Both the position numbers and the translations under genes were made by a program. From Favolaschia claudopus (lineage: Eukaryota; Basidiomycota; Agaricomycetes; Agaricales; Mycenaceae), in contig JAWWNJ010000032.1 in NCBI GenBank assembly GCA_037176885.1, positions 1,612,001-1,676,000 of the forward strand: a stretch of 64,000 bases of DNA. The letters are read 5' to 3'. The notes under the pieces are model-generated. The model made no database searches. It was given only the letters and a program-made list of their open reading frames with translations, and was not told where the DNA came from. Below are positions 2,891-58,522 of the stretch, in pieces (the stretch's first letter is position 1; each line of letters starts with the position of its first letter).

Positions 2891-4911
2891 CTATTTCGAA
2901 CAGTACGAATCAATAATATCCTTCACCTTGTGTTCCGCCTTATTGGATTGAACGATCTGCGCAAATGTGGCCCTATTCGCATACATCCTCAACTCCGTAT
3001 GCACCTTCGCTGCGCTTGACGTCTGATAACTTTGAACAGCAGAATCAATATGCGCTTGAGTGAGGCGGCGCGGTGGGGGGACATCCAGTGTTTCGAGGAA
3101 AAGGTGGTCCATGATGAGCGTGAGGTCGCAGATGTAGGCCATGAGGCAACGGAGGGCTTCTGGACTGTGAGGTGGCGGGAGGGGGCATGATGCATACTCG
3201 ATATCAGGGAAGATATTCAAACGATCGGAACTCACGTTTCATTGTAAACAGCCCGGATCCACTTCATGAACATTGTTGAGAGACCGATAGCAACGAAGAT
3301 AGGCGCGGCAGCAGCTGTGATAGCGGTACCGATGCCGATAAGGGCTTGGAAAGGATCGACATTGTCGCTGAGAAACAGGTACAACGAATCAAGAGGTAGC
3401 AGCTTAGAAGACGAGTCTTGATATCACTCACAACCAAGTACGTATTTCCTTATCTTCTGGAACGACAAACTGAATGAGCGAGTACAGCTTCTGCTTGAAG
3501 GTATCGTTGGTGAGAAGCTGGTGGTTGTAACGAATGAGGTTGTTTTATCTGAAAATGAAAATCTTTTGGAGGGTGCTCGTACCTCGTCCGGATCGTTGAA
3601 ATTCCAACTTGCAGTGATTTCGAAATGAATGGTCTTGAGACATGTTTGCAACGGAGAGCCAAACAGCTTCGTAGTTGACGCGAGACCAAGCCAGTATCCT
3701 AGAGAATTGGAACCAGATGCGTGAAACACAATTAAGATACTGAATTCACCTTGCATTCCGATCCTGCAGAGATCTGATTATTTTCGTGGGCAGCATTCAA
3801 TCAACGGCATACTTAATGGAGCTGTCCACCTTCGCGCGAGCACTCGTCCTCTGCGCCACGGCGGTAACAAACCAAACGTTTTCTTTGACCATGTCTTGCG
3901 TAGCTTCGACCAGCAATCTCAATGCTGCCCGATCGACATGCATGCCTTCAGTCAGTCCTAAACAGTCCAGCAATTCGGACAGGTTCAGCCGTCCATCTCG
4001 AATAGATTGAACGCGCATATGCTTACCAGATGTTTGAGCATACCGAACGGAATTAAATCGCTCTAGAGGACGAAGGCAAATCTCTACAAATTTCGTGGCA
4101 CTTCGTTGGGTCACATTTTCGTCGCATTCGTCCGAGTCCATCTCCTCGTCGGTAAGCTCTTGCTCAACGAGACTCTTTAGTTTGTCGAATTGAGTGAACA
4201 CGATGATGAGTGGGACTGACGAATCTTAACTTGGAAAAAGCTCATGGTGTGTATTGGCGATAGCGTACCTTTCTGATGCAATGCGAATTCAATGAGTTTT
4301 TCGTCCCCTGTTTCCAGTACGCGCCCGCCGGCATGCGGAATTTTTATGCAGAGCCTGTATGATATTCTTGAGAAACGATGATCGCAAAGGAATGGGACCT
4401 TTGCTCACCAAACAACATGAACTTGATCCTGAATCGCGATATTTTCCGCACTTCGGGCCTCAAGGAAGGCGATCGCATTCTCCAGATTCGTTACTTGCCC
4501 GGGCTCGAATCCCATAGAGTCGTGTAAAATCAGACGAGGATTATCGGGAGATGTAATCTCATCGTGGATGTTACAAACTCCCCGAGCCTGGTGGGAAACC
4601 ACCTGCAAAGATCGAGGTAAGAAATCAATATTTCGGGAAGGTCACTGGCGACGCTCACTTGCTGCTTGATTCCAAAGACGTGATTGATGAGCGAGGATTT
4701 TCCTGTGCCAGACTAGACCACGGGAGAGCCGTCGGAATGGAAAGTTAGATATCGAGAGTACAGAAAATCCCACCTTTCCGACCACAAGGACTCGCAATCT
4801 GAGGAATCTGCGCGTTAGAGAATATCAGATTGATGAAGGAACTGGCTCGTACTTGGGACATTTAGCCAATATTTTGTCGGTTTCGAGAGGTAATGTTCCG
4901 CCGCCCGCCAT
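2891..4911 (-). CDS. GTPase gene M1: TRAFAC-type G-domain protein with hydrophobic C-terminal segment, 460 aa
   Basis: Twelve exons (complement): 4853-4911, 4774-4807, 4659-4712, 4409-4602, 4269-4354, 4027-4215, 3813-3957, 3750-3763, 3583-3698, 3432-3517, 3236-3367, 2891-3164. They join to 1383 nt with no internal stop, all with GT-AG introns of 45-71 bp. Visible GTPase motifs are the P-loop GKSGTGKS (residues 30-37, cut by an intron after GK), G3 DSMG (77-80) and G4 TQFD (150-153; the usual Lys of TKxD is Gln). A hydrophobic Gly/Ala-rich segment (about 335-356) suggests membrane contact. The last exon is helical and best kept between copies. It resembles an Agaricomycete family annotated only as G-domain or GTP-binding proteins; the cellular role is unknown. 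It lies head to head with P1, 652 bp apart. Confidence 0.85.
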
Positions 4912-5563: not shown

Positions 5564-8500
5564 ATGGACGCTGTCCTCGACATACGCAGCAAATTATCGC
5601 ACTTCCGCATCCTCATTCTCGGAAGGGCAAATGCTGGGAAAACGACTATCCTCAAGAAGGTCTGCAACTCCGTCGAGGACCCAGAGATCTTCAACCTACG
5701 CGGTAAAAAGGTATGTCGTCGGGTACTGGGCAGGGAGAAATTCTTATTGCATCCACGTAGATCGACCCGTCGATTGTGCAGGAATCGGCAGAGGTATATC
5801 TTAATTTGTATGACTTTTCGTCACTTCAAGATCAATACAGCGAGGGTTGCACAACATTGAGAATCAAATGATTTTCAAGAGCAATCCGCAGTTTATTTTT
5901 CACGATTCGCGTGGATTCGAGTCCGGGTCCGCGGAGGAAATCGACGGAGTCAAGTCGTTTATCATAGAACGTGCTCAAAAAAATACCTTGGCTGACCAGC
6001 TCCACGCAATTTGGTCGGCTGATTTTTTTTCTCCTATGTATTTATACGAACTTCACAGCAGGTATTGCCTCCCGACCGATACAGGCAGGCCACTTCTAGC
6101 AGCAGACGAAGAATTCTTCGAAAACGACATCGCTCGCAAAGGAAAGCCGTTTCTGTTAATTCGTGCCGCACTCATCCGACCAAATCCAAAGTTCCCCTAG
6201 TTGCAATATTCACCAAATTCGACGGTCTCTTGACAGAGGCATTCAACAGGCTTCGAACAACTGGATTATCAATCAAAGATGCCCGAAATCGTCAAGCTAG
6301 CCGAGCAGGAGAATTGCTGGAGACTAATTTTCTAGAGCCTCTCAAGTCAAAGCAATACCCCCCAGCTGGTTATGTCCAGCTTGACGGTGAGTCGTTCTCT
6401 TAGCCTTTCGTCCCGCGTTCTGCATTTCTTTTAGATATGCGCAAGGAAACAAGTACCTGCCACGAACTCATCGAGACAACGGCCAACACTATCGACGACA
6501 AGGCTCTTCAGTTGTTGTTTGTATCTGTGCAGCAAAGTAATATCGACCTCTGTGTACGCTGGGCGGTATCCAAGTGAGTCGTGGCTGTTTCACTTGGGGA
6601 GTGAGTCACCGGTGGCCAATTTCTTTCCCAGCGCTTTCCGCTCAGATACCGCGTATACCGCGTTCCGTAAGTACCGAATGCATCGGCTGGATTACACGAC
6701 CGCTTAAGCTTCCTAGAAATTGTGGACATGACTCTGCGTTGGTTCCCTCATGTGTGGGTGCGTGATTCACGTTCGCCATCAATGTGCTCAGCAAACCTCT
6801 TGTAGACAGTAAGGATGCGCATCACAACAGTCTCCAATGTTCAAAGCAATTGATTTATTCTCGTGCAGTCCGACGAGGTGAATGTTTCAAATCACTTCAC
6901 GCTGACAATTGTGCAGGCGTATTGACGAGGGATGCAGATAGTGAGTGGAAATTGTTGTATTTTGTTGACCAAGCTGAGTAGTCAAAGTATGATGTGAGTG
7001 CCGGGCTTCTTTCCGACGCCACTTGACCCTCTCTGCATAGGATATCGCAAGTATTCCTCGCTGTATGCTAATTGGCTGCGGGTAAACATTTCTACAGTCT
7101 GTGAGTGTCTACATTTTTGCGGTATCTGCTTGCTCCCAACGTCCCTCGATCTGGTAGCTCGTGGTCAGTGCAATCTTTTCGATATCTCTGATTCTTGTTA
7201 TCATATATCTGGTAGCGGGTTAGTGCAATCTTTTCGATATCTCTGATTCTTGTTATCATATATCTGGTAGCGGGTTAGTGCAAATTATGTCGTGGCGATT
7301 CACTAAAGATACTGACAAGGGACATTTCAGTTCGGTGTGAGTCGAATCGATCTTGCTCTCTTAGACTCTCGTCCGAATATCTCTTTCTGTAGATGGTACG
7401 CATTGTCGAATCTCTCAAGTATTGTTGCATACTGAATAGTTGCAGAAAGCAGTACGTATCACCTCCCTTGCCGTTCCACTGAGTATCAATAGGACATTAT
7501 TTTTGCAGGAGGTAAGGGCGCATTTGATTGCTTGCTAGGTTCACCTCCCGACGGATATTACAGAAAGAGGTTTGATCTTTCTTCGAGACTCAGCTTGTCG
7601 CTGAATCTTTTGCAGGAGGTATGTCAAGAACGGTCCTCAATGTCATTGGCACCGATCAGCAACTTTCTAGACTGTATGTGATCTTCCTAGCTGATCAAAG
7701 ATCTTCTCTCATGCATCGCAGAGGGTGAAGTTGAACTGTTGGCTGGACTTTGACGATCAAAACTCATTGTAATGATATTCCCAGACAAAAAATCTTGAGT
7801 TCTGCTTCAAGATTATGCAAGCCAAGTACCCCAATTTCCAGCAGGATCCATTGTCATCAAGACATCAAGTAGTCATGGGTATGTGACATTTAACGACGGT
7901 TAGTCTCTCGTAGACAGACGCTACAACAAAAATTATCCTCGTACCTGCGGTTGTTGTAGTCTGTTGAGAAGGTGAGTCGGCCGAACGGTCGCCCGCCTTA
8001 TTACATAATCAGAAATTTCTTGGGCTCCTTTTCATAGTTTTAAGCGCGTTTTAAGCAAAATTTTGGCTTCACTGACCTTCCTTGATTGGAAATGAACAGC
8101 TTTGTCAGTCAAATCTAGAGAAATTATGCAGGCAACGACGAGATTCAGAATCGGCTGACAAATCCTGTCAAACCGATGGGTCGTTCAATTGGGCTCATTC
8201 GGGCAAGAATATCGTAGGTTTTACTAGATAGACCTGTTAAGATATACCATAGAAGATACTTGGCCAGCAAAAGTTTGTTTATGGAGGTTGCACAACGTTG
8301 AAAGCAAGGGAGCAAGGCGTGGGAATATATTGAAACTCCGACGATTGGTAATAACACGGGCGACCGTGCAAGCGATCGTGGTCAACAACAGACTAAACGA
8401 CGGTGGAGTTAAGAGATCAACCCCGATTAAGCTATATGTATCTGCGCCGAACAAACGTTTTCCGAAGGCTCTGCCAAGTCTCAAGAGTTTGTGCCGGCTT

Positions 8501-12811: not shown

Positions 12812-15800
12812 ATGGACGCTGTCCTCGACATCCGTAGCAAATTATCCCACTTCCGTATCCTCATCCTCGGAAGGGCAAACGCTGGGAAGACGACAATCCT
12901 TAAGGGAGTCTGCAACTCCGTCGAGGACCCAGAGATCTTCAACCTACGCGGTAAAAAGGCACGTCGTCGGGTACTCGCCGTGGAGAGCCTCTGTCATTGA
13001 ATCCGCGTAGATCGACCCGTTGATTGTGCAGGAATCGGCAGAGGTATATCTTCATTTGTATGATTTTTCGTCACTTGAAGATCAATACAGCGAGGGCTGC
13101 ACAACATTGAACATCAATTGATTTTCAAAAGCAATCCGCAGTTTATTTTTCATGACTCGCGCGGATTCGAGTCTGGGTCTGTGGAGGAAATTGACGGAGT
13201 GAAGTCGTTTATCACGAGACGTGCTGAGGAAGTTACTTTGGCTGATCAGCTCCACGCGATCTGGTGAGCCAATGGCATCTCCCAATGAATTTATATCAAC
13301 TTCACGATCAGGTATTGCATCCCAACAGATACAGCTAGGCCCCTTCTAGCAGCGGATGAAGAATTCTTCGAAAACGACATCGCTCGCAAAGGAGTATACC
13401 TCACCTTCGTAACTTAGTCACTTCGGCTAAATGTAAGAAACTTCGTGACTTGATGTATATCTAAGAAACTTCGTGAGTTGAGCTCAAATCTGAGAAAGTT
13501 CGTCACTTGCAAATGACTGCCAAGAGCAAACTGCCATGAAGGCCAACTCCTCGGCAAGAATTCGGCACTGTTGGTACCCTTCGCCGTAGTTTGCGCGAAG
13601 GGGACCGACCATTCCCGTCCCCTCCCCTCCCTCGCTTCGCTCGGGGGGTCCCCCGAACCGGGGCCGCTCAGGTCGGCACACTAAAGCCACGTTCGCGCGG
13701 ATCACTCTGTCTTCACCCTAACCTTAACCCGTCGGGGCGGGGTTCTTTTGCTGAATTGCCGGAGTTAGGGCGCGCTCCGCTTGCCCTAACTCCTCGGCAG
13801 TGCATTCATTTGGCCTGCGGCAGTCACAACAAGGCAAGCAGTATGTTTGATGGCCGAAAGTCATAAATTCACATACCAAGTGACGAACTTTCCCAAAAAC
13901 AACCTCAAGTGACGAAGTTTCACAGTTTCCCATCACAGTCACGAACTTTCTCACTTTTAGCCGAAGTGACTATGTTACGAAGATTGCGCGGACTCCTCGC
14001 AAAGGAAAGCCGTTTCTGTTCATTCGTGCGGCGCACTCGTCTGACCAAATCCAAAGTTCCTCTAGTTGCAATATTCACCAAATCCGACGGTCTCGTCACA
14101 GAAGCATTCAACGCACTTCGAGCAAGTGGAAAATCGATCAAAGATGCGCGGAAACTTCAAGCTAGCCGAGCACAAGATTTGCTGGAGACTAATTTTCTAG
14201 AGCCACTCAAGTCAAAGAAATATCCCCCCGCTGGGTATGTCCAGCTTGACGGTGAGTCGTGTCCCTACACTTTCGTCCCCGAGTTCTGTTGAGATGGATT
14301 TGTTATAGATATGCGCAAGGAGACAAGTGGCTGCCACGAACTCATCGAGACAACGGCCAACGCTATCGACGACAAAGCTCTTCAGCTGTTGTTTGTATCT
14401 GTGCAGCAAAATAATATCGGTCTCTGTGTCACCTGTGCGATACGGTCGTGAGTCATTCGTAGCTATTTGCCCTCGTAACTTACTAACTCGTGGGCAATTT
14501 CTTCCAGGGCTTTGGACCGTTTTGCGAAATCAAACACTCTGCTCGGTAAGTATCACAGCCGCATTGGTTGAATTTTAAGAGGGCTGATTTCCTTAGATAT
14601 TGTACAGCCGACTCTGAGTTGGTTCCCTCATGTATGGGTGCGTCTTGAGGTGATTTGTGTTCGCCTTCAATGTGCTCAGCGAATCTTTTGTAGAACGTAA
14701 GGAGTGTTGATTTTTCAAGCACAGTTGATTGATTCTCGCTCAGTCCACCGAAGTGATTAGCTTCAAACACAGACGTATCTTCACGCATATTGATTGATCA
14801 TGCAGATAGTGAGCAGACTTTTTCGTATTCATTACCAGGCTCATCAGTCTCACTGGCAGTATGTTAGTGTCGGGATTTTTTTGGTAACACCAATTGCGAC
14901 CTGACTCCTCTTGAGATAGGATTCAGTAAGTATTCTTCGCCCGTATGCTAGATTTGTCAAAGGCAAACAATTCTACAGCACGTAAGTATACGTACCGTCC
15001 AAATGCTGCGCCATTTGCTTTCAGCCAACATTCCACTATTGGCTAGCCGGTAAGCGTGATCTTTTTCTTGTTCCAAACAGTGTAACATAGCTTGTAGACG
15101 GTCAGAACAACCTGTTTTCCGGCGATGCGTTAAATGTACCCATGAGTGCCATTTCAGATTAAAAATGTGTATGTGAGTCGATTTGTTCTTGCTCCCATTC
15201 CTTCTCGACCGAATGTTTCTTTCTGTAGCTGGTACGCATTATCAAACCTCAAGTATTGTTTCCTACTGAATATGTTCAGGGAAAGCCAAACGTACATACC
15301 ACTCTCGTCTCAGGCTTTCTTCCCCTCACCATCAATGGGATCTTTTCTGTGCAGAGAGTAAGGGCACGTCTGAGGACTTGCTAGATTGACTCTTCACAAG
15401 CTATCCTATAGTTGAATGTGAGCGCTAACATCGTATTGAGACTGAGCTTGCCGCTAATCACTTGCAGTCGGTGTGTCGAAACCGTTTATGAATGTCGCTG
15501 ACATCATGAAACAATTTTCAGACTGTAGGTGATCCTCTCAACTAGTCAAAGATTTTCCCTAATGCATGGCTCACACAGTGGGTGAAGTCGGACCTATCAT
15601 CGAACTTTGATGAAACTTATTTCGTAACATTTCCAGAGCAGAAATCGTGACCTATGCAGTGAAGTTTTGCATGTCAAGTACCCTGATCTGACGAAGGATC
15701 CTATCTCGGCCTCAGCATCGTTTCAATTGATTTTGGGTATGTGATATTCATCGACTGTAGAATCGATGAGGTCAAGCATATTTTAGCTATATGTATCTGT

Positions 15801-19311: not shown

Positions 19312-20125
19312 ATGGACGCTGTTCTCGACATCCGCAGCAAATTATCGCATTTCCGCATCCTCATCCTTGGAAGGGCAAATGCTGGGAAGACGACTATTCT
19401 CAAGAAGGTCTGCAACTCCGTTGAAGACCCAGAGATCTTCGACCCAGACGGTAAAAAGGTACGTCGTCGGGTATTCGCCGGGGAGAGCCTCTGTCATTGA
19501 ATCCGCGTAGATCGACCCGTCGATTGTGCAGGAATCAAAAGAGGTATATCTCTCTTTGTGTGTTGTCTTTGAAGTTTCAGGAACGATACAGCGCGGGCTT
19601 CACAACATTGACAATCAATTGATTTTCAAAAGCAATCCCCAGTTTATTTTTCATGACTCGCCCGGATTCGAGTCGGGATCTGAGGAAGAAATCGACACAG
19701 TCAAGACGTTTATCACGGAACGTGCTTGGACAAGAACCTTGGCTGACCAGCTCCACGCGATCTGGTCGGCTGATTTCTTCTTCGATGAATTTATACCAAC
19801 TCCACCGCAGGTATTGCGTTCCAACTGATACAGACAGGCCCCTTCTAGCAGCCGATGAAGAATTCTTCGAGGACGACATTGCTCGCAAAGGAAAGCTGTT
19901 TCTTTTCATTCGTGTGGCGTAATTGTCTGACCAGCTTCAAAGTCCCCCTGGTTGCAATATTCACCAAATTCGACGGTCTCGTCACAGAAGCTAACAGCAA
20001 CCTGCGAGCTAGTGGAGTATCACTCAGAGAGAGGCGAAAGCGCCAAAACGAATTAGCGCGAGAGATGCTCGAAACAAACTTTTTAGGGCCTCTCAAGTCA
20101 AAGAAATACCACCCAGCTGGTTATG

Positions 20126-20729
20126 GAGTCCGCGCAATCTTCGTAACATAGTCACTTCGGCTAAAAGTGAGAAAGTTCGTGACTGTGATGGGAAACTGTG
20201 AAACTTCGTCACTTGAGGTTGTTTTTGGGAAAGTTCGTCACTTGGTATGTGAATTTATGACTTTCGGCCATCAAACATACTGCTTGCCTTGTTGTGACTG
20301 CCGCAGGCCAAATGAATGCACTGCCGAGGAGTTAGGGCAAGCGGAGCGCGCCCTAACTCCGGCAATTCAGCAAAAGAACCCCGCCCCGACGGGTTAAGGT
20401 TAGGGTGAAGACAGAGTGATCCGCGCGAACGTGGCTTTAGTGTGCCGACCTGAGCGGCCCCGGTTCGGGGGACCCCCCGAGCGAAGCGAGGGAGGGGAGG
20501 GGACGGGAATGGTCGGTCCCCTTCGCGCAAACTACGGCGAAGGGTACCAACAGTGCCGAATTCTTGCCGAGGAGTTGGCCTTCATGGCAGTTTGCTCTTG
20601 GCAGTCATTTGCAAGTGACGAACTTTCTCAGATTTGAGCTCAACTCACGAAGTTTCTTAGATATACATCAAGTCACGAAGTTTCTTACATTTAGCCGAAG
20701 TGACTAAGTTACGAAGGTGAGGTATACTC
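20126..20729 (-). mobile_element. MULE-like MITE copy B (604 bp, inverted relative to copy A)
   Basis: The 9-bp duplication is CTGGTTATG (20117-20125 and 20730-20738). The sequence is the reverse complement of copy A over its whole length, as far as I can compare by eye, with the same 604 bp. It sits in a protein-coding exon of P3 and interrupts the frame (stop TAG about 30 bp in). Confidence 0.9.
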
Positions 20730-22292
20730 CTGGTTATGTCCAGCTTGACGGTGAGTCGTGCTCTCAGGCTCTCGTCCCCAGGTTCTGTTGAGATGTATTT
20801 TTTTTAGATATGCGCAAGGAGACAAGTAGCTGCCACGAACTGATCGAGACAACGGCCAATGCTATCGACAACAAAGCTCTTCAACTGTTGTTTGTATCTG
20901 TTCAGCAAAATAATATGGGCTACTGTACACTGCGGGAAGGAAAAACACTTCATATGAGTGCGTAAGCACTCAAATCCGAAAAGCCGAACTCAATCTGAGT
21001 GCGTTAGTTTTGGGCTCCATCTGAGCGCCTTTCCTGGCACTTCATCTGAGTACCTTCAAAGCACTATATTTGAGAGCACTGTACTTGATTGCTCCTCAGC
21101 GCACTCAGAATTAAGGCGCTCTGTATGAGCGCTGTTCGGCGAACTTCGTCTCAGTGCGTCTCGGATTTGACATGTAGCGGCTCGGGGGATTCGTTCTCCT
21201 AGCTCCGTGCCCTTATACTATTGGGACAAGAATTTATTTCTTTCAGGTTACCTATATCTCGATGGTTTTCTAGGCAAAAGAAATGTTGAGCTCATGGCGT
21301 TCCACGTCACCGTAAAACTCGCTTATAAAAAGCCTAAGCTCGCTAAATTGTGATAGTACAGTCCAGGAGTATCTACAATACTGAGTATGTAATCTAACAG
21401 GATGCAAAGAATTTGTATTTTGTCGAGGACTAAGGCTAGCGCGAGCGCGTTTCGGCACCAACTCAGTCGATTCGGAGCGAAATGACGGGAGGTCGCGACG
21501 CCGTGCGACTGACGTACGGGGTGTCGGAGATTCAGGGACGTAGCAAACTGTTTGGGATAGCTTTGAAGATGGAGTCGGTCAGCTCCAGGAGTGAACGGGG
21601 AGGAGTGTGGAGGAGAGGGGAATTGAGAGGAGGCGGTGCGGTAACATGGCAACAGGGGGAGGTGACTGGGCAGACAACGTAGCGAGCGGGATCGGCAGAG
21701 CGGTGAAAGATGCGGACTTGAAGGGGTGAGGGGGCGAACGAGGTGTAAGGATTGAAGCGATGGCGGTCTGGCCAGTGTACACGTCGAAACGAGACGAGGT
21801 AGAATGGCAGGGCCATCTACAACAGAAGAAATGAGGTTAGATTGACTTCATCTGGCTATGAAGATGGCATACCTGCACGAAACCAGCCAGCGTTGACTTG
21901 CCGTTCCGCGTTCGTCTCGGCTTGAGTCGAAGAAGGACGTCGGGAAGCGGCGCCGCGCCGCGCACTTTGCTTCAAAAAGGGCTAGTCAAAGGTCGCGTGT
22001 TTGGAGAGCAGCAAACTCGCCGTACGATGCAGCAGCGAGCTCTGCGGCGTTTATATGGCCCTAGTCGGCGACGTAGTGAGAGCAGGAGGACGGCTGGTTG
22101 AGTTGTGAGGTGGGGAGAGTGAGGTTGGGGAGTGTCGAGGGAGGAGGTGTAATTGGACGCGAAGGTACTGAACGAATGACGGTGGATTTGGGCAGCGAGG
22201 CGGCGGATTTAATAGGCGGCGGATGGAAAATGCGGCGGAGTCGAGAGTGAGCCACAGCAAATGCCGAGAGCGGAGGTGACTAGAGTCGACAA

Positions 22293-22517
22293 TGTTGGAA
22301 TATGAAGCCGAAGAGGTCTCGGGCATCCTTACTCAGCCCGAGTACCTGAACATTCTAGATATTTCTTCAAGTTTCTATTTTACTCAGCTACTCATAGTAT
22401 TACTAATATTCCTGGGAGGTATAAATACTCAGTAGATAGAGCACTGTACTTTACTGGTTTGCAAGGGAATACATCACTTACTCCTATTCCAAGCTCAAAC
22501 CATCCGCTTTTTCTACA
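22293..22517 (+). repeat. 5' LTR
   Basis: 225 bp, TG...CA ends, containing a TATA-like GGTATAAATACTC at about 22419. Confidence 0.9.
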
Positions 22518-22579
22518 CAAACCAGTACTAGCCTTTGTGGTGGGCCAGTCTTCAATACACCACCCTGCTTAAATCTCTA

Positions 22580-22690
22580 GGAGCGAACCCTAGAAACCTT
22601 GGGAGCGAACCCCAAGGACGTTGAACTCGGGAGCGAACCCCGAACCTGTTGAACCCGGAGCGAACCCGGAACCTGTTGGAAACCCACGGC
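22580..22690 (+). repeat. Short GGAGCGAACCC repeats in the gag leader
   Basis: Four copies of GGAGCGAACC(C) at uneven 25-35 bp spacing stand between the 5' LTR and the gag start. Each is followed by sequence partly complementary to what precedes it (for example CTTGG/CCAAGG, CTCGG/CCGAAC), so small hairpins are possible. This may be part of an RNA packaging or translation leader. Confidence 0.6.
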
Positions 22691-22715
22691 CTTTACCCTT
22701 CGAATTCTACCCACG

Positions 22716-23546
22716 ATGTCCAATCACGATTCCTCATCACGATTCCCACGTCTCAATGACACCAACTACCCCGAATGGGCACTCCGTATGGAAGCCGAGC
22801 TGGTCCGAAAGGGCCTTTGGAACGGCATCATGGAGATTCCCATCAAGACTGAGGGAAGGACGCGTGAAGAGGTGGAAAAGGAATATACCTCAAAGCATGG
22901 ACAGAGAGACGAAGCAAAGATGGCAGAGGCGAGGGCAGAGATGATTTTGCGGGTTGATGATGGACAGCTGTCGCATATGCGGGCTAGAGACCCGATGGAG
23001 ATTTGGCTTGATTTGCGAAGAGTTCACCGAGCACACGGCTTTGCGACAAGCCTCGCGTTGCGAAGGAAATTCTTGACGGCGAAGAAGAAGGATGATCAGT
23101 CGATGCAGTCATGGATTGGGGAGATTCGGAGCCAGGCATTCACCATCGAGGAGGTGACTGGAATTCAAGTCAGTGACCAGGACAAGATTTTGGCACTCAC
23201 TATGGGATTACCGGCCGCCTATGATCCGGTGATCATCAACTTCGATTCGGCCGCACCCGAGACATTGACTTTCAATGGCGTCGTTGCGAGATTATTGAAC
23301 GAGGAGACACGGCAAGGTGGTGCAGGGATTAAGGGGGAGCCCGAGGCGGCCTTCTCCGCTGGATTCCAGCACCAGAAACCTAACCGCGCTGATGTCACCT
23401 GTCACTTCTGCGATCGGAAGGGACACTACAAGTCGGAATGTCCCGAACGGATCAAATGGGCCGAGGGTAGAAAAGATAACAAAGGAGGAACGGCAGGTGC
23501 CGCTACTGCCATGGTTGAGTTTGACCATTATGATGCGGCATGGTAA
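22716..23546 (+). CDS. Gag-like protein of the LTR element (276 aa)
   Basis: A single uninterrupted frame. The N-terminal part (LNDTNYPEWALRMEAELV, about residues 11-28) and the middle (LRRKFLTAKK, MTMGLP-like) match Copia gag families of the UBN2/retrotran_gag_2 type. Near the C-terminus is a CCHC zinc knuckle, CHFCDRKGHYKSEC (about 227-240), used for RNA binding. The frame ends in TAA 29 bp before the 3' LTR, so no pol fusion exists. The knuckle is complete and the frame is open, consistent with a protein that is still made. Confidence 0.85.
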   Translation: MSNHDSSSRFPRLNDTNYPEWALRMEAELVRKGLWNGIMEIPIKTEGRTREEVEKEYTSKHGQRDEAKMAEARAEMILRVDDGQLSHMRARDPMEIWLDLRRVHRAHGFATSLALRRKFLTAKKKDDQSMQSWIGEIRSQAFTIEEVTGIQVSDQDKILALTMGLPAAYDPVIINFDSAAPETLTFNGVVARLLNEETRQGGAGIKGEPEAAFSAGFQHQKPNRADVTCHFCDRKGHYKSECPERIKWAEGRKDNKGGTAGAATAMVEFDHYDAAW

Positions 23547-23575
23547 ATGATTCCACACTTCGGCTTCAGGGGGAG

Positions 23576-23800
23576 TGTTGGAATATGAAGCCGAAGAGGT
23601 CTCGGGCATCCTTACTCAGCCCGAGTACCTGAACATTCTAGATATTTCTTCAAGTTTCTATTTTACTCAGCTACTCATAGTATTACTAATATTCCTGGGA
23701 GGTATAAATACTCAGTAGATAGAGCACTGTACTTTACTGGTTTGCAAGGGAATACATCACTTACTCCTATTCCAAGCTCAAACCATCCGCTTTTTCTACA
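23576..23800 (+). repeat. 3' LTR
   Basis: 225 bp, identical to the 5' LTR in a read-through comparison, which implies a very recent insertion. Confidence 0.9.
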
Positions 23801-26800
23801 GACAAAGGGGCCATAGATACGGGGGAAACGTCGGGAAGGGATGGAATGGGGAGGTGGGGCCTTGTCGGTGAGTGGGTCGTCTTGAGAAAATTTAGTTAGG
23901 TGAGTTTATTGAGGAGCAAGGCGGGCATCGGGTCGTAACTGACGAAAGCGGTGGGAGAGACGGATGTTGTGGAGAAACTCGCCCGTAGACGATCGAGGTG
24001 AGTGGCGAACTACTTGCAATTGGGTCAAATCTTTGCAGATACAGACAAAGTGGTGGACACACCTTATTTTGCTCCTATGAGTCAATAGCCTCATGATCAG
24101 CATTGGCGTTCATTGGGTGAAGTCGGACGACGCGGACAGGGTTTGCGAGTGCTCAGTGGGTCAGAGACTGTGATGAGCGAATTACGAGGCACCGTGGAGC
24201 TGTAGAAAATTGGCGACGCAGCAAGTGGGAGAGCGCCGCGTCGTGAATGTCGAAGTAGGAGTGACGAGTCATTATAAATAAGCGCAGTCCGAGTCCCTAG
24301 TTCAGCAGCACAGCTTGCGGGGCTAGTCCAGCGAGAGGAGGTGAGGCAAGGATGGACAGACAACGGGCCGCCAGATTCGAGGTGGTGCACAGGTAGGACT
24401 GAGGCGCGAGAGGTAGGGTGTGAGGCATGTGAGTGTAGAAAAGAGGACTCTGCCGAAATCAGTCACTTGTGTGACTGTGACGTCACCTGTGACTGTACGC
24501 GTCTTGCCTTCTCCCACCATCATCGATTCATCGCCGACCATCCAGCCACTCCGGCAACCTCGCTCAATCCTCAAGCTATCCAATATGACTCTCTTACACT
24601 CTGAGCACGCGTTCTGACACGTCTCACGCAAATCAGCCTGAGATCGCTCAAAATCACCTCGGGAACGACATCCGCACCGGGCGCGACTTTGAACGCGTCG
24701 TTTCGATTCAAAGTGACTCCAAGGCACTCAAACGATGAACATCACCGTCTGTGAACCCGCACTGCGCGTTCCAGCCCTCCACCTATGTGTTCTTTGAAGC
24801 ACTTGCGAGGTGTGCAATCCTATGAATCCCGTTTGCTTCAATGACGCGCAGTAGGGACCCTGCCTTATATCGCGAAACATTGTGGAGACGATAACTGAAG
24901 TGTGGTATGTTGAGTCTACGTCTGTAGCTCCTCGAATAGCACACCTGACGTAGCAATCTCAAGCTGACGCGAACTGCACATTCACTGCAGACCATCTGGT
25001 CACTTGACAGGCTTTGCTCCGGTACCCGCGGCTGTCGGCGTTGTCTGATGTAGGGAAGAGGGAAGTCCTGGTCGGGGTGAAAAGGCGACGGTAGTCGGTG
25101 CGCCAGTAATTTGTATTCTTTGACCGCCTCCTCCCTCTTCTTCTATCCTCCTTGGGTCCCCCATGCCCTCCCTTTCCCTCTATACTTCTCTCTCCTCGTG
25201 CCTTACCATCGTCACCTCTCCCATCGTTCTTCTCGCTTACTCTCACACAGTACTGATGCTCCGACACTGCAGTCTCTGCCAATTCCGTCTCTACCGAGCG
25301 TCCCTTGTCGCCCCGTCTGCCGACATACCCCGCGCTGCAACGTAGCGTACGTAAATGCGACATATTCAACCCACCCTCTTCAAGTCTCATCCCGTACATC
25401 TTCACATACCCTTCGTCAACCCTCCTCGCTGCGCTGATTATCACGCGATCGCCGCATTCACCCTCCACACTAGCCGGATCGCATGACCCGACCGCGCATC
25501 TCGAGACACGGTATTCGCCCACCGCCACCTCTCAATGATCTGAGCGCTCAACGGTTGAAATGGTAATTATGTTTTCTTCCAAATGTGGTCCATGTGCTGA
25601 GCGATTTCACCGCAGTATCGGCGGGGGGCTTGCCGTCGAAAATCGAGTGGATAATTTTCTGTTCCGCCGTCTATCTACTGATTCTACACAAAGCCGTCAC
25701 GCTCTCGGTCAACATTAAGTTTCTCCCTTTCACTTGCTGGTATATTTCATCTGATATTTCCCCTTGACACCCTCGATTTCGAACTTCGGCTACATCCAGG
25801 CCACCCCCGTCACTTCTGTGGCAGTGATCGTTCGGTATGCTTTGTGTCCGATGAATTCTATTCGCATCGACTCATGCCCGCTGGGTTTAGATATTATGTG
25901 GATTCAACTGTCAGCTGAGCTTTCTGTTGAACGGAGCGCATTCGCTGACACTTTTGGCACAGCGCTGTTTACGAATCAAGGTCTAGTCAGCCAAAGTTGA
26001 GTCGATGACTGGTTTTTATTAAATGTCGGAATATTGATAGTGTTTGCTTAGATTCTTGGTATACTCAGCTCATGCCGTTTGTCGACACTCATGATCAGGT
26101 ACTTTATCATTGCTCTGTCTGATCTTCTTACTCATGGACGATCACAAGCTTTGCACAAATTCTCATCGCTGTTCTCAACGCCGCTGTCCCACCAACATTG
26201 TCGTGAGTGTTTGAACATTCTGCTAAATTTCCGGAGTTAATGGTTTATCTTACATAGTTGATCTCGTTTATGACTCGTGGCTTACACTTGCGAAGAACCT
26301 CGGCAGCGATGTTCATGGTACTAATGCCTACGTACCGTATGTTGTACCGTAGCCAAATACAATCATTTGTGGAAATCGTAGGGAATTGAATGGTAATGCA
26401 TGTAAGTAGGTCGAAAACTCACATGAAGTGCTATTGAGCACTCCATCTGAGTGCGTTGAAGCACTTATGCTGAGTGCCTAGAAGCGCTCGAATGGAGTGC
26501 TTCAACGCACTCAACTTGAGTTCGTCTGGAGCACTCAGGTACAGTGCTTCAATGACTTCATCCTACTATCGAAATCTGCCGTTTAGACACTTCATCTGAG
26601 TGCGTCGACGCACTTCAGCTGAGTGTTCCAACACACTCCACCTGAGCGCTTTTCGGGCACTCAGATGAAGTGCTTTTCCTTCCCGCAGTGCTGTATCCAC
26701 GCTGCGCTAAACACGTAAGTCATCCGTGCCTATTTCGCTTTGGGAATGAGTAACCGGTGACTAATTTTTTTTTGTAGCGCTTTCGGCTCACTGGCAGATA

Positions 26801-26900
26801 CTGCGTTCGGTAAGTACCGAATGCATCGGCTGGATTACACGACCGCTTATGCTTCCCAGACATTGTAGAGAAGACTCTCAGATGGTTCCCACATGTGTGG

Positions 26901-27894
26901 GTGAGTCTTGAAGTGTTTCATGTCCGCCTTTAATGTGCTCAGCAAACCTCTTGTAGACAGTAAGGATGCGCATCGCAACAGTCTCCAGTGTTCAGAGCAA
27001 TTGATTTATGCTCCTACAGTCCGACGAGGTGAATGGTTCAAATTACTTCACACCAACATCCGTGCTGGCGCAATTGTATTGACCGTATGCAGATAGTGAG
27101 CAAGCATTGTCGTATTTTGTTGATCGAGCTGACCAGTCCAAGTATGATGTGAGTGCCGGGCTTCTTTCCGCTGTCACTTAATCCCTCTCGATATAGGATC
27201 CGGCAAGTATTCTTCGCCGTACGCTAATTTGTCGCGGGTAAACAATTTTACAGGATGTAAGTACATTCTGCGTTTGTGCTATGTGCTTGTTGCCAACGTC
27301 CCGCCATCTGGTAGTCGACAATAAGCGTAAGCGCAGTATTTTTAATGTCTCTAATCATTGTTAACATATATTTCGTAGCTGGTCAGTGCAACTTGTGTCG
27401 TGGCGATTCATTAAAGGTACTGACGAGGGACATTTCAGTTAACTGTGAGTTGAATTGATCTTGCTCTCTTATATCCTCGTCTAAATATCTCTTTCTGTAG
27501 CTGGTGCGCATTGTCGAATTTCAAGTTATTGTTGCATATTGAATACTGGTAGTCGCGGTCCTCGGTAGTACGTATCACCTCATATGCAGTTCCACTGAGT
27601 ATCAATAAGACACTATTTTTCCAGGCGGTAAGTGCGGAGTACTGGATAGGTTCGCCCTCCCGACGCATATTACAGAAGAAGGTTTTTTTTTTTTTTTCGA
27701 ACCTCAGTGTGTCCCTGAACCATTTGCAGGTGTGTTATGAACGGTTCTCATTGTCATTGGCACCGATCAACAACTTTCCAGTCTGTACGTGATTTTCCTA
27801 GCTGATCAAAGATCTTCTCTCATTCATCACAGTGGGTGAAGTCGAACCCTTGGCTAGAATTTGATGATCGAAGACTCATTTTATATATTTCCAG
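26901..27894 (+). other. Microexon array of P3
   Basis: Same series as P1: ACA (26956-26958), TCCGACGAG (27020-27028), ATA (27093-27095), TCCAAGTATGAT, GATCCG followed by GCAAGT, GAT, then later TTAACT, CTG, GCG, AAGAAG, TCT and TGG. It stays in phase although the gene is already broken upstream by transposons, so the breakage is young. Confidence 0.6.
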
Positions 27895-28951
27895 AAAAGA
27901 AATCTTGCGCTCTGCGTCAAGATTATGCAAGCCAAGTACCCCGATTTCGAGCAAGATCCATTGTCAGCAAGACATCAAGTGATCATGAGTATGTGACATT
28001 TAACGACGGTAGAGTTAAGAGATCAACCCCGATTAAGCTGTATGTATCTGCGCCGAACAAACGTTTTCCGAAGGCTCCGTCAAGTCTCAAGGGTTTGTGC
28101 CGGCTTTCGAAAACGCAATGGAACAATATCTTGGCTCGGAGCTGGAGAAACAAGTTATGCAAGAGTACCACGACTCGTTCGGTGGGTTTCTCTTGGAAAA
28201 TGCCACGGAAAGGCTGCTGATGCGAGATGAAGCTGCATCCCGCGACAGGTACGAGGGACGGGAAATACTGAAGAATATTATTCTGAATCATCCTCTTCGT
28301 GGGTACCCAGTCCTCACATGCGTATCGCATCATCATGTTTGTCCAGGCATCGGTCATGCTGCTCAGGCTGCGGAGAATTGGCTTACATCGGACTAGAATT
28401 TCGCTGCTCTAGAAAGCTTTGAAGGTTGTACTTACTTGTGTACCAAATCGATTCGAATCGTGAAATCTGTAAGACTAGCCATAAAATTCGATAACCTCCG
28501 GAGAAGGGTCTGAAAACGAAGCCTCGCAATTCCGTACTTACCCGAATGTGTAATGCGTGTCTGAGTAGTTGAAGCAATGAAGGTGGATAGCTGATGCGAT
28601 GAGATGCAACGAAACAAAATCAGAATTTAGATGTGAGTACGAGTACTTCAAGTTTGCATTTTGAAGTCTCAGTGCTTAATACGCGGGTGGTCGAAAGACT
28701 TTCTAAATTCTTCGGCGACAGGGTGGCGACGGCTGCAACACCAATGGGGTCCTTGAGAACTGTGTTTGGGGTTCGAGATTCAGCTAAAATCCAGTGCCGC
28801 AGGTCTGCGTTCAAACCAGTAATACTCAGAAATATTTTCACTTGCACGAATTCAGCTTCCTGAGCACGAAGTCTGCCGTTTAGTCAAGAAATGCGAAATC
28901 GACGAATGAAAACCCACCGGTAATTGACTTGATCGAATCCGTGCCTTCATA

Positions 28952-34646: not shown

Positions 34647-36659
34647 CTATTTCGAACAGTACAAATCAATTATCTCTTGCACCTTCTCTTCCGCCCTATT
34701 AGACTGAACGATCTGCGCAAACGTCATACTATTCGCATACATCCTCAATTCGTTGTGCACCTTCCATGCGCTTGACTTCTGATAACTCTCAACAGCAGAA
34801 TCAATATGCGCTTGAGTGAGGTGGCGCGGTGGGGGGAGATCCAGTGTTTCGAGGAAGAGGTGGTCCATGATGAGGGTGAGGTCGCAGATGTAGGCCATGA
34901 GACAGCGAAGGGCTTCGGGGCTGTGCGGTAGCCAGTATAAGAGGCATGGGTATGATAATAAATTTCAGTGAAGATAATAAAGTGAATGCAACATACGTTT
35001 GGACGTAACGAGAGGCGATCCACTCCACGAACATCTTTGAGAGACCGATGGCGACCAACACCGGTCCGGCAGCAGCTGTGATAGTGGTACCGATGCCAAT
35101 AAGGGTTTGAAAACGATCGACATCGTCGCTAAAAAAAATTAGCGGTAATGGATCAAGAGGAAGCTCGGAAGATTAGTAAATTTCACTCACAACCAAGAAC
35201 GTATTTCCTTATCTTCTGGAACGAGGAACTGGATGAGCGAGTATATTCTCTGTTTAAAGGCTTCGCTGGCGAGGAACTGGGTAGTGTCCTGGATGAGCAT
35301 GTTTTTTTTTCCAAATAAGGTTGAATTGCCTCATACCTCGTCCGGATCATTGAAATTCCAACTTGCAGTGATTTCGAAATGAATCGTCCTCAGACAGTTC
35401 TCTAGCGTGGAGCCAAAAAGCTTCGTAGTTGAGGCGAGACCGCGCCAGTATCCTGGGATACCGAACTCGAATTTTGTCAAACACAATCAGGATACAAAAC
35501 TGACCTTGCATTCCGATGCTGAAAACAAAGATACAATCAGTCTCGGCCTGCGACCACGAATTAATGACATACTCAATGGAGCCGTCGACCTTGTCCCGAG
35601 GGCTCCTCCTCTGCGCCACCGTGGTCACAAACCAAACGCGGTTCTCAACCTTGTCTCGTGTAGTGTGGACCAGTGACTTCAAAGCTCCTTCATCCATGCA
35701 TATTCCCACTGAAACATGCTCAAAGACCCCTCGCGTAATGAATGAAGCGCGCCAATGCTCACCAGATGTCCGAACATACGGAAGCAGAGGCTGAGATTTC
35801 CGGAGCGGAATATCACAAATCTCTACGAACTTCTTCTCACTTCTTTGGGCAACGATGGCTTCGCAGTCAGACAACTCCATCTCCGCTTCGGTCAGCTCTT
35901 GTTCAATCCGCGTCTGCAATTTGTCGAATTGAGTGAATACGACAATGAGTGGGACTGGCGAATCTTGAATTTAGACAAGTTCATAGCACGTATCGGTGAT
36001 GAATGCGTACCGTTCTTATCCAATGCGAACTGAATAAATTCCTCGTCACCCGTTTCGAGTACGCGGCCTCCTGCATGCGGAATTTTGATGCAGAGCCTAC
36101 AGAAAATTCTTGAGAAACAATGATCGCAAAGCAATGCGACCTTTGTTCACCAAACAACATGGACTTGATCCTGAATCGCGACATTTTCTGCACTTCGGGC
36201 CCTCAGGAAGTTGATCGCCTTCTTGAGATTCGCGTCTTGCCCAGGCTCGAATCCCATCGAATCATGTAAAACGAGGTGACGATTATCGGGAGATGTGATT
36301 TCGTCCTCGATGTTACAAATGCCTGGAGCATTGTGGGAAACCACCTGCAAAGATCGCAATGAGGAATCAATCTTTAGGGCAGTCGCTGAGGGGCTTACAG
36401 TTACTTGCTGCTTGATCCCAAAGACGTGATTGATGAGCGAGGATTTTCCCGCGCCAGACTGGATCACAGGAGAGTCATTGGAAACAGGAAAGCTAGATAT
36501 TGAGACTAGTATAAAAATCCCACCTTTCCGACCACAAGGACTCGCAATCTACGATGTGCGCGTTTGGAACGATCAGATTCATAAAGGAACTGACTCGTAC
36601 TTGGGACATTTAGCCAATCTTTTGTCGGTTTCGAGAGGTAATGTTCCGCTGCTCGTCAT
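34647..36659 (-). CDS. GTPase gene M3: G-domain protein, apparently intact
   Basis: Paralogue of M1 with the same twelve-exon layout. The start ATG is at 36657-36659, the last exon ends at 34647. The P-loop reads GKSGAGKS, again cut by an intron after GK. G3 is DSMG and G4 TQFD. The acceptor of the second exon lies nine bases further in than in M1, removing three residues in frame. The hydrophobic segment (GIGTTITAAAGPVLVAIGL) and the helical last exon are kept. I followed the frame through each junction and saw no stop. It is divergent from P4, with an upstream region twice as long as in the other pairs. Confidence 0.8.
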
Positions 36660-38153: not shown

Positions 38154-40799
38154 ATGGACGCCGTCCTCGACATTCGCAGCAATTTATCGCACTTCCGCAT
38201 CCTCATCCTTGGAAGGGCAAATGCTGGGAAGACAACAATCCTGAAGAAGGTCTGCAACTCCATCGACGACCCGGAGATCTATGGTCCAGACGGTAAAGAG
38301 GCACGTCGTCGGATATTGGGCAGGGAGAGACCGGCACTGAACCCGCGTAGATCGACCCCTCGATTGTGAAGGAATCAGAAGGGGTATGTATCCCATTGCA
38401 TGACTTTTTGTAATCTCAGGATCGACACAGCGAGGGCTGCACGACATTGAGAATCAATTGATTTTCAAGAGCAACCCGCAATTCATTTTTCACGACTCCC
38501 GCGGTTTCGAATCTGGATCTGCGCTAGAAATTCTCCGAGTCAAGTTGTTTATCACGAGACGTGCTGAGGAACCCACGTTGGCTGAGCAGCTCCACGCAAT
38601 TTGGTTGGTTAATTTCCCTTCGATAAATTTATACCACAGGCCTTGCCTATCATGCCAGGTATTGCCTCCCAACCGATACAGACAGGCCCCTTCTAGCAGC
38701 GGATCAAGCATTCTTCGAGAACGATGTTGCTCGCAAAGGATAGTCATTTTCTTCTTCATTCGTGATGCGCAATGGTCTGACTGACTCCAAAGTGCCCCTC
38801 ATCGCAATATTCACCAAATTCGACGGTCTCATCACGGAGGCAAACAACAACCTACTAACGGGTGGAGTGATATCAATGATTGAGAGGCGAAAGCGTCAAA
38901 ACGAAAGAGCACGAGAGATGCTCGAAACTAACTTTTTAGGGCCTCTCAAGTCGAAGCAATACCCCCCAGCTGGCTATGTCCAGCTTGACAGTGAGTCGTG
39001 CTCCTACTCACTTTCGTCCCCGAGTTTTGTTGAGATGAATTTCTTTTAGATATGCTCGAGAAGACAAGTAGTTGCCACGAACTCATCGAGACAACGGCCA
39101 ACACTATCGACGACAAAGCCCTTCAGTTGTTGTTTGTATCTGTGCAACAAAACAATGTCAATGTCTGCATCAGATATGCCATAAGATAGTGAGTCATTTG
39201 TGGCTATTTCACTTTGCAAGTTAGTAACTTGCGGGTATTTTTTTCCCAGCAATTTGGACTCGGATACATTGTTCGGTAAGTACCAATGGCATTGGCCTGC
39301 TTACACGACTGCTTATGGCTTCGTAGAAATTGTAGAGGAGACTCTGTGTTGGTTCCCTCATGTATGGGTGAGTCTTGAAGTGATGCATGTTCGGCTTCAA
39401 TGTTCTCAGCATGCCTTTTGTAGAAGGTAAGGATGCGTATCGCAACAGCCTCCAATGTTCAGAGCAATTGATTCATTCTCGTACAGTCGGGCGAGGTGAA
39501 TGGTTCAAATTTCTTCATACCCACGTCTGTGCTGGCGTATTGACCAAGTATGCAGATAGTGAGCAGACTTTGTCGTATTTTGTTGATCGAGCTGACTAGT
39601 CCAAGTATGTGAGTGCGGGGCTTCTTTCCGATGCCACTTGACGCCTCTCCATATAGGATCAGGCAAGTATTCTTTGCTGTATGCCAATTTGTCGCGGGTA
39701 AACGATTTTACAGAATGTAAGTACATTCTACGGTGTGTGCTATGTTCTTGTTGCGAATGTCCCGCCATCTGGTAGCAGATAATGAGGGTAAGCGCAATCT
39801 TTTCGATATCTCTGATCATTGTTCACATATAGCTCGTAGCCGGTCAGTGAAACTTGTGTCGTGGCGATTCATTAAATGTACTGACCAGCAGCATTTCAGA
39901 GACTTGTGAGTCGAATCGATCTTGCTCTTTTGGACTCTCGTCCGAATATCTCTTTTGTAGGAGGTGCGTCACCTCGCTTGCCGTTCCACCGAGTATCAAG
40001 AGGACCCTATTTTGCAGCTGGTAAGGGCGCATTGAAGTACTTGTTAGGTTCACCTCCCGAGGCATATTACAGGCTGATGACGAGGTCTGATCTTTCTTCG
40101 AGACTCAGCTTGTCGCTCAATCATTTACAGGAGGTGTGTCAAGAACGGTCCTGAATGCATTGACTGTCCAACAGCTTTCTAGACCGTAATAGTATGTGAT
40201 CTTCCTAGCTGATCAAAGATCTTCTCTCATGCATCACAGTGGGTGAAGTCGACCCTTTGGACTTTGATAATCAAAAGTTAAAACTCACTCTATGATATTC
40301 TCCAGAAAAGAAATCTTGAGCTCTGCGCCAAGATTATGCGAGACAAGTATCCCAACTTTGAGCAGGATCCAGCGTCTCCAAATGTTCAAATGATCATGGG
40401 TATGGGACAGTTAACGACAGCAGAGTCAACCAAAGTGATTGCGATTTAGCGATATGTATCTGCGCCGAACAAGGGTTTTCGGAAGGCTCTGCCAGGTCTC
40501 AAGGGTTTGTGCCGGCTTTCGAAAACGCAATGGAACACTATGCTGGCTCGGAGCTGGAGAAAAAAGTTATGCAAGAGTACCACAAGTCGTCCGGTGCGTT
40601 TCTCTTGAAAGTTGCCACCGAAAGGCTGCTGATGTGAGATGAAGCTTTATTAAGCCGCTTGGAAGATTACGAGAGATCCATAATACTGCGTGATATTGTT
40701 CTGAATCACCGTCTTCGTAGGTGCACAGTTCTTCACATTTGCATCGCATTTTGACGTGCTTTAGGCATCAGTCCTTCCGCTGAGGCTGCGGAGCATTAA
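38154..40799 (+). pseudogene. GTPase gene P4, premature stop near the C-terminus
   Basis: Paralogue of P1. The first exon, 38154-38300, has GRANAGKT and a GC donor (GCACGT). G3 is DSRG, G4 TKFD. The GTPase domain and microexon array are in frame. In the C-terminal exon the codon CGA of P3 (after RLLM) is TGA at 40635-40637, removing roughly the last 40 residues; the former end is TAA at 40797-40799. Because only the tail is lost, a shortened product may still be made, so pseudogene status is uncertain. Confidence 0.7.
39368..40305 (+). other. Microexon array of P4
   Basis: Same series with small differences: AAG, TCGGGCGAG, ATA, TCCAAGTAT, GATCAG followed by GCAAGT, AAT, CAGATAATGAGG, CCG, AGACTT, GAG, CTG, GCTGATGACGAG, GAG, ACCGTAATA and TGG. 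One intron-microexon pair present in P1 (AAAGCA) is missing, with the two flanking introns fused into one. Confidence 0.6.
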
Positions 40800-56449: not shown

Positions 56450-56927
56450 CCGAGTCGCAGCGAGTCAGAGTAGAGTCGGAGTAAAAGTAGAGGAGAGGAG
56501 AGTGGGCGGCTGCGGATTTCGATTGCGTGGGGTACGGGCGATTGAAGATTCTGGCTGGCAGGAATTTATGTACCTACGCACCTGTTGACATTCTCCGCAG
56601 CTGCGCGAACGATTCGACCAATGGCAGAATGAGTCGAGATTCTTATCCTTCCACAGTACGAGTCTGTTCAAAATAAAATCGCCGTCGTATTCACATCATA
56701 GCGCAGGATCCGATTGAGCGCTCGTACTGAGGATTAACATGAGATGAGCCGTTAAGTTCGAGTGGTGGAGGAGGGAAGAAGTGGAGTGAAGTGCAGTGAA
56801 TTATGGCTTGCTTAGTTCCGACGAGGATAAATATTCTGAATGCCAACGCTCAATGATTCTGGATCTCGACAAAAGAAATTCGAAAATACATGTCACGAAC
56901 CCGTCAATATCGATGCGTCGCACCTAC
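56450..56927. other. Intergenic region between DUF6593 and SDR genes
   Basis: Upstream of the DUF6593 gene and downstream of the SDR gene. No gene seen. Confidence 0.5.
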
Positions 56928-57905: not shown

Positions 57906-58522
57906 CGTTGTCGTTGTGGTGTGAAGGAGGGAGAGCGCGGAAGAGCGTCCCGGGCTGAGAGTTTTGCCGGGAGGACACATGACACCCACGCTGGAATAGA
58001 AGCACGAAAAGAGATTGAAAGACGTGTTTCGTTTTGAACTGTGCAGTTCAACAGAGTTCAACGCACCTCAGGGAGATTACTCTACCGCTTCATTGTCCCA
58101 GAATTTCCACCGATTTTATTTGAATGATTTCGCCAGAAAATTTAGACTCGCAGTGGTACATTCGATTTCGAGGGAGAGCTACGTCCACATTGGAGGGTTA
58201 TCGTGGGCATAGCAGAGCTCCGTTACTTATCGCGGAAGATCCATCACCGTCGCGGCGTCGACATGGTGGTTGTAGGAGAGCACAAAGGACGCGAGAGCCT
58301 CAAAAACAAACAACCGCAATTCGACCGGCACGGCTCGGGACGGCAACTTCCGTCCCTGTTGTCTCTTTTCTCCCATCCACCTCGACAGCGACTCGGGCAT
58401 ACCCGTCTCTTCCGCTGCCTGCTGAACATTCGGTGTCAAATTTCGGAAAAAACAAGATATTTGTGTGCAATGTGCAGCAAGGAACGGCGTTGGGGTGACT
58501 AGACGATCGGAGTAGTGCACAG
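57906..58522. other. Intergenic region upstream of the SDR gene and tRNA
   Basis: Contains the ACAACGACAAC-type leader of the SDR gene (minus strand). No further gene supported. Confidence 0.5.

Follow-up and report, generated by a model that had tools for sequence, protein, structure and literature searches.

A run of 15 to 17 consecutive phase-0 microexons, mostly of a single codon, predicted in a family of GTPase genes of Favolaschia claudopus

The DNA analyzed here, referred to as the window, is a stretch of 64,000 nucleotides within a Favolaschia claudopus contig (C32) of 1,966,961 bp, part of an assembly of 264.6 Mb; the genome paper gives a size of 265 Mb (PMC10905254). On its plus strand lies P1, a GTPase gene in which exon 1 (5564..5710) carries the start codon and the P-loop motif GRANAGKTT. 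An NCBI protein of F. claudopus shares 95% identity with the P1 query across 76% of the query. The first part of the gene contains seven ordinary introns of 47-58 nt as modelled. Intron 4 (6136-6191) and its copies in the related genes show no obvious GT donor; a GA-AG reading was considered, but the intron may begin six bases upstream with a GC donor (GCAAAG, 6136), a GC-AG reading that fits eight of nine places, the L009 locus having GG. Exon 8 (6717..6757) ends in the residues FPHVW with a phase 0 donor and has an identity of 0.839 among five copies. The array studied here begins at the next base and occupies 6758..7784 (+), where 6758 is base 1 of its first intron and 7784 the final base of its last. 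According to the gene model and splice-chain searches, this segment holds 17 exons of 3-12 nt between 18 introns of 41-60 nt, flanked upstream by the W of FPHVW and downstream by an exon that starts TKNLEFC.

The microexons of P1 measure, in order, 3, 9, 3, 12, 6, 3, 6, 3, 3, 6, 3, 6, 3, 6, 3, 3 and 3 nt, so that 10 of 17 are one-codon exons, and their 81 nt (27 codons) would encode the peptide TSDEISKYDDISLVRRFGMKAEKEETR. In the gene model, all on the plus strand, the series opens with ACA (6806..6808, also included in the NCBI model P0001), TCCGACGAG (6869..6877), ATA (6938..6940), TCAAAGTATGAT (6982..6993) and GATATC (7041..7046), the last followed by a GC donor (GCAAGT), the single exception to GT in this array. 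The next members are TCT (7098..7100) and CTCGTG (7158..7163), both hypervariable when copies are compared, then a CGG (7216..7218) that intron comparison assigns to a unit duplicated in P1, and a second, variable CGG (7271..7273). Microexons 10 to 14 are again hypervariable by copy comparison or in the curated table described below: TTCGGT (7331..7336), ATG (7393..7395), AAAGCA (7446..7451), which differs in length between copies and is missing in P4 and L014, GAG (7509..7511), where eight copies have eight different codons, and AAAGAG (7564..7569). The series closes with GAG (7616..7618), ACT (7671..7673) and AGG (7722..7724), the last being TGG in the seven other copies. The original prediction had described 17 successive phase-0 microexons at this place, with 27 codons in exons of 3, 6, 9 or 12 nt and introns of 41-60 bp. 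These sizes match the P1 gene model, and the succession itself is supported by the splice signals, by exon lengths in threes that emerge although frame was not imposed, by its recurrence in nine copies, one of them split, and by a shift in evolutionary rate.

Homologous arrays are present in the three other P genes, as the original prediction had stated. On the plus strand of the window, P2 holds 16 microexons (14638..15636), P3 holds 15 together with one AG-GT junction enclosing no nucleotides (26901..27894), and P4 holds 15 (39368..40305), each supported by chain searching, alignment and the curated table. Another four complete copies are found in other parts of the genome (L011, L012, L013 and L014), giving eight in total, and a ninth (L009 3459-3928 / L010 2680-3480) is cut in intron 6 by a large insertion. 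The microexons on either side of this cut look intact by eye, and one AG-GT junction is empty. By contig, six copies are on C32, two on C81 (one of them split) and one on C1. A gene flanking the arrays (window 56900-58100) also occurs on C81 (92% identity) and on C1 (90%), indicating that the assembly holds more than two versions of the region, and the copy number of array genes appears to differ between these versions. In P3 (window 19312-28002), the G domain (approximately 19312-20932) lies apart from the array at 26901, and a Copia-type gag-like ORF with a zinc-knuckle motif (22716-23546), an apparent retroelement insertion, sits between them. Among the matches listed, at least six of the nine array genes have a divergent second GTPase-like match (29-37% identity) a few kb upstream, mostly one exon long, with examples in the window at 4402-4590 (-) and 36147-36452 (-) and others on C81, C1 and C32. 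In four distant relatives (L015-L018), the best array candidate scored 24.1, short of the threshold of 30, but no motif was found there by which to recognize the homologous place.

We searched each complete copy for the best chain of introns between two fixed edges, allowing introns of 38-72 nt and exons of any length up to 18 nt, without using the reading frame. Chains were scored on fungal donor, branch and acceptor preferences, with matrices of consensus values. Across the eight copies, 115 of 127 exons in these frame-free chains were multiples of three. With a small per-base charge on exons and zero length allowed, the number rose to 123 of 127, a figure that includes six exons of zero length, versus 3226 of 9123 (35%) in dinucleotide-keeping shuffles under the same settings. 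Real chains scored 124-151, whereas the shuffles that gave a chain (150 shuffles per copy, of which 48-89 gave none) averaged -2 to 12 with a maximum of 54.7, which excludes chance as the origin of the series. A local scan of both strands of the 64-kb window for chains of at least four introns and a score of at least 30 returned P1-P4 only, at 117-144; the same scan of 20 shuffled windows (40 strands) gave four chains past the threshold, the best at 38.6.

One reading per copy was then fixed by homology among the copies in a curated table, which by its making favors multiples of three. In this table, the 127 exons comprise 79 of 3 nt, 21 of 6, 12 of 9, 10 of 12, two of 15, one of 18 and two of zero length. 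The 135 introns of the eight copies are 41-65 nt long, with 129 GT and 6 GC donors and a G at position +5 in 117; with GT or GC..AG borders, a fungal-type donor and a fungal-type length, they have the features of U2-type spliceosomal introns. The exon lengths of different copies differ by multiples of three in all 115 comparisons, in part because the table was built that way, compared with 88 of 310 for intron lengths. The predicted linkers have 22-30 residues and contain no stop codon in any of the eight copies (213 codons). They start with x-(S/Y)-x-(E/A)-(I/K)-(SK)-Y-D and end with T-W in five of eight, and their middle is unlike from copy to copy.

This variability was compared with that of the introns in six close copies (P1, P3, P4, L011, L012 and L014). 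Microexon identity was 736/1105 (0.666) in columns labelled from P1, under which exons 7, 8, 12 and 14 draw misaligned or intron letters from some copies, versus 8652/10488 (0.825) in intron cores, 0.887 in donors and 0.968 in acceptors. None of 2000 random sets of size-matched intron blocks fell as low as the microexons, and microexon combs slid by 10-34 bases in either direction never fell below 0.770. The idea that codons are kept while the introns drift is therefore reversed among the close copies. What stands of the claim that coding meaning is preserved concerns the first five exons, which mostly read x-S-x-E-I-(SK)-Y-D, together with the last few, with identities of 0.69-1.00 for exons 1-5 and 15-17, but not the hypervariable middle (0.31-0.62 for exons 6-14). 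Comparisons with the distant copies P2 and L013 showed about equal differences in exons and introns (0.583 and 0.588).

Two further measures avoid the problem of columns labelled from P1. In the curated codons of exons 6-15, pN was 0.551 versus a pS of 0.150, the latter lowered because G is favored ahead of GT. In a rate test on the array-intron tree, 63 microexon columns (without exons 8, 12 and 14, and with exon 4 cut to its shared TAT) fitted twice the intron rate (2dlnL 29.4, p 5.9e-8), and exons 6, 7, 9, 10, 11, 13 and 15, grouped with a cut at exon 6 chosen after the data were seen, fitted 3.5 times that rate (2dlnL 44.3, p 2.8e-11). Three disjoint pairs of copies compared with the array introns gave p values of 0.0024, 0.00053 and 0.16 for all microexons (combined 2.7e-5) and of 0.0012, 0.00057 and 0.022 for the middle ones. 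A rate above that of introns, falling on codons, points to selection on the protein, and indirectly supports the view that the microexons are translated under diversifying selection, which would be the cause of their divergence.

The most serious alternative, which we nonetheless consider unlikely, accepts that the microexons are spliced in but attributes their fast change to relaxed constraint beside slow array introns, or to a mutation bias at splice junctions, rather than to diversifying selection. The array introns are indeed more conserved than introns 1-7 (difference 0.177 versus 0.245 in five copies), so that the excess measured over array introns is inflated; moreover, the place of the linker is disordered in a structure model of the homologue P0004, and the third base is partly fixed by the G before GT (in the curated table, 59 of 125 exons have G as their final base). 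Yet against the faster introns 1-7 of five copies, all microexons still fit 1.5 times (2dlnL 9.4, p 0.0022) and the middle ones 2.5 times the intron rate (2dlnL 24.6, p 7e-7), although in one of two disjoint pairs the excess is not significant (all microexons, p 0.30 and 0.023; middle microexons, p 0.10 and 0.0085). Furthermore, microexons 3, 4 and 17 are conserved at the same kind of junction, against the expectation of such a bias. Upstream in the gene, exons 1-6 show the opposite trend (identity 0.81-0.91 versus 0.757 in introns 1-7), and exon 7 (6632..6666, 35 nt) is hypervariable too, with an identity of 0.563 versus the same 0.757 in five copies.

A second alternative is that the segment of about 1 kb is removed whole as a single large intron, the AG..GT triplets being relics of duplicated introns. 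The original prediction held that in-frame joining of the flanking exons requires splicing of the array, but this did not hold up: both edges of the array are phase 0, and skipping it entirely also preserves the frame. In addition, three Mycena models (P0009, P0016 and P0121) join FPHVW (or FGHVW, FPHVY) straight to the C-terminal helices with no linker, and the P0048 model has a linker of a few residues only. Orthologues lacking these residues had been named beforehand as evidence against the array, and on paper this is partly what the Mycena models offer; they are nevertheless not decisive, being products of automatic annotation, and among the matches listed (the best rows of two lists) the C-terminal motif is absent from 120 of the 132 relatives. 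The latter count also suggests that the family may be widely mis-annotated. Under the single-intron explanation, triplets should drift at the intron rate and lengths should not be tied to three, whereas the triplets diverge faster, threes emerge without a frame rule, the 213 codons are free of stops, and donors and acceptors are better kept than intron cores. Among the NCBI models, P0001 (for P1) has the 3-nt exon ACA and the next microexon before running into an intron, the inclusion of ACA being contrary to a single intron, whereas P0003 (for P4), which keeps only one 12-nt microexon and skips the others, speaks against the array. On balance, removal of the whole segment is very unlikely. 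The least probable of the three alternatives is recursive splicing, in which the sites would be ratchet points that remove one long intron stepwise with few or no codons kept, since this process is described for very long introns (PMC13149111) and the array region is just 1 kb, and since the empty AG-GT junctions in its favor number only 2 of 127 curated sites (another was seen by eye in the split ninth copy), against 125 that keep 3-18 nt and carry the rate signal.

Among the matches listed, short JGI contigs were the source of eight relatives, five of which reach FPHxW. Two of these five continue with residues that resemble the first microexons, ANFEYD in P0015 and TNAEYD in P0004, and their contigs are only 1006 and 1669 nt long and thus presumably cDNA; in the other three, the continuation is unlike the microexons. 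In P0015, ANFEYD is followed by VC and a stop, as expected of a retained intron. Along with P0001, these two proteins lend thin and indirect support to the inclusion of microexons in mature RNA, while the other three count against it. A protein search with the linker and C-terminus as the query region returned two F. claudopus models only. Separately, in the annotated protein P0132 of Mycena olivaceomarginata, approximately 27 repeats of nine residues (TEHAAIPAG type) occupy the place of the P1 array, with FPHIW before them and the C-terminal helix after them.

In the structure model of the homologue P0004 (76 rows, pLDDT 82.7), a G domain is followed by helices that extend to FPHVW and then by a coil of low confidence at approximately 279-306, and a helical C-terminal domain starts at 307. 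As the coil falls at the place of the array, the array would encode a flexible hinge between two folded domains. An earlier model from nine sequences was poor (pLDDT 61), its Foldseek search was weak, and it was discarded. The fold matches tie between IRG, septin, EngB and G-alpha proteins, are confined to the G domain and do not single out a family. Homologues score below the Pfam MMR_HSR1 cut-off (P0004, 20.3 versus 21.9; P0009, P0003 and P0016 lower), and precomputed PF01926 annotation marks some relatives. A PDB sequence search returned only short P-loop matches, mostly to Arf-like proteins.

One event of array growth was found. In P1 only among the eight copies, a 55-bp unit consisting of an intron and CGG is tandemly duplicated (7164..7273, +), as judged from the alignment and from array introns 8 and 9, which differ at one base (z 15.6); a whole codon was thereby gained in frame. 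Beyond this duplication, comparison of the array introns in P1, L012 and L013 gave nothing convincing for a common origin, the best pair having a z of 4.5 (P1 introns 10 and 14, 153 pairs) and the best pairs of the other two copies 3.3 and 2.7.

We thus regard it as highly probable, on the basis of these sequence comparisons, that P1 and its relatives are GTPase genes in which an interdomain linker of 22-30 residues is assembled from 15-17 consecutive phase-0 microexons and is hypervariable under diversifying selection. The latter part of this reading follows from the middle codons outpacing the introns, by 2-3.5 times for array introns and 1.5-2.5 times for introns 1-7. Most microexons would be included in the mature RNA, each of them, usually a single codon, lying between short introns of the ordinary spliceosomal type. 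Exons of one codon are usually regarded as difficult for the spliceosome, and a 3-nt exon is unlikely to carry both splicing machineries simultaneously. The introns would instead be removed one by one by intron definition, probably sequentially, so that once one intron is gone, the triplet would become the end of a normal exon. The array may grow by duplication of an intron-plus-microexon unit, as in the one case of P1. Because all microexons are phase 0 and multiples of three, any subset could be skipped without loss of frame. A bolder reading, which we put forward tentatively as rather improbable, is that the array generates diversity one codon at a time, alternative splicing of a single gene yielding very many linker variants that unit duplication and diversifying selection renew in a recognition or immunity-like GTPase. 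That the linker sets specificity in such a recognition role is speculative and the least certain part of our interpretation.

Coding positions also outpace introns in families with accelerated exons, as in venom-type evolution; whole ordinary exons are affected there, whereas the exons concerned here are single codons. In the texts available to us, the nearest analogues of the array are the micro-exon genes (MEG) of Schistosoma mansoni and the bicycle genes of aphids, both by likeness of gene structure. MEG encode secreted proteins, and their very short exons, most of them a multiple of three in length, come in runs of 10-20 that are difficult for automatic annotation, with exons of 6-81 bp (3-81 in the abstract), mostly 15 bp, and introns of 0.1-5 kb (PMC10526429). 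The P1-type array is likewise a run of short symmetric exons, but most of its exons are 3 bp, its introns are 41-65 nt, and it forms an island inside a GTPase gene. Bicycle genes, putative plant-gall effectors of insects, contain numerous internal exons that are unusually small and share one phase, and they are under strong positive selection on the protein (PMC9168663). Small one-phase exons and, probably, diversifying selection are shared with the array, although bicycle exons are almost all phase 2 and, in the portion of that paper at hand, not described as codon-sized, whereas all modelled array exons are phase 0.

Among fungi, cytochrome P450 genes of Phanerochaete contain microexons of 2-10 amino acids beside introns of 45-55 bp (PMC1184071), and Xlr2 of Trichoderma has one microexon of 20 nt (PMC11121469); the available parts of these papers describe neither an uninterrupted run of 15-17 nor an excess of divergence over introns. 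This accords with the original prediction, which knew of isolated microexons in fungi and of no run of this density. Elsewhere, human RPS24 carries a row of three microexons measuring 3, 18 and 22 bp (PMC12686416), and plants have 1-nt exons and adjacent pairs of microexons (PMC8831610), so that the parts of these sources at hand describe at most three in a row, compared with 15-17 here. No comparable run of one-codon exons was found in the literature searched, which mostly lies outside subscription journals and preprints, and the run of tiny exons in P1 appears denser than those found described.

Taken together, 15-17 tiny exons in a row, 79 of 127 being 3 nt long, appear to be read in eight complete copies of a fungal GTPase gene. 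If they are, these genes would offer a direct test of how exons smaller than the footprint of the splicing machinery are recognized in species whose introns are short. The faster change of the triplets further ties an odd gene structure to diversifying selection, as reported for bicycle genes, hinting that the link between microexon arrays and fast-evolving proteins may be a recurrent one.
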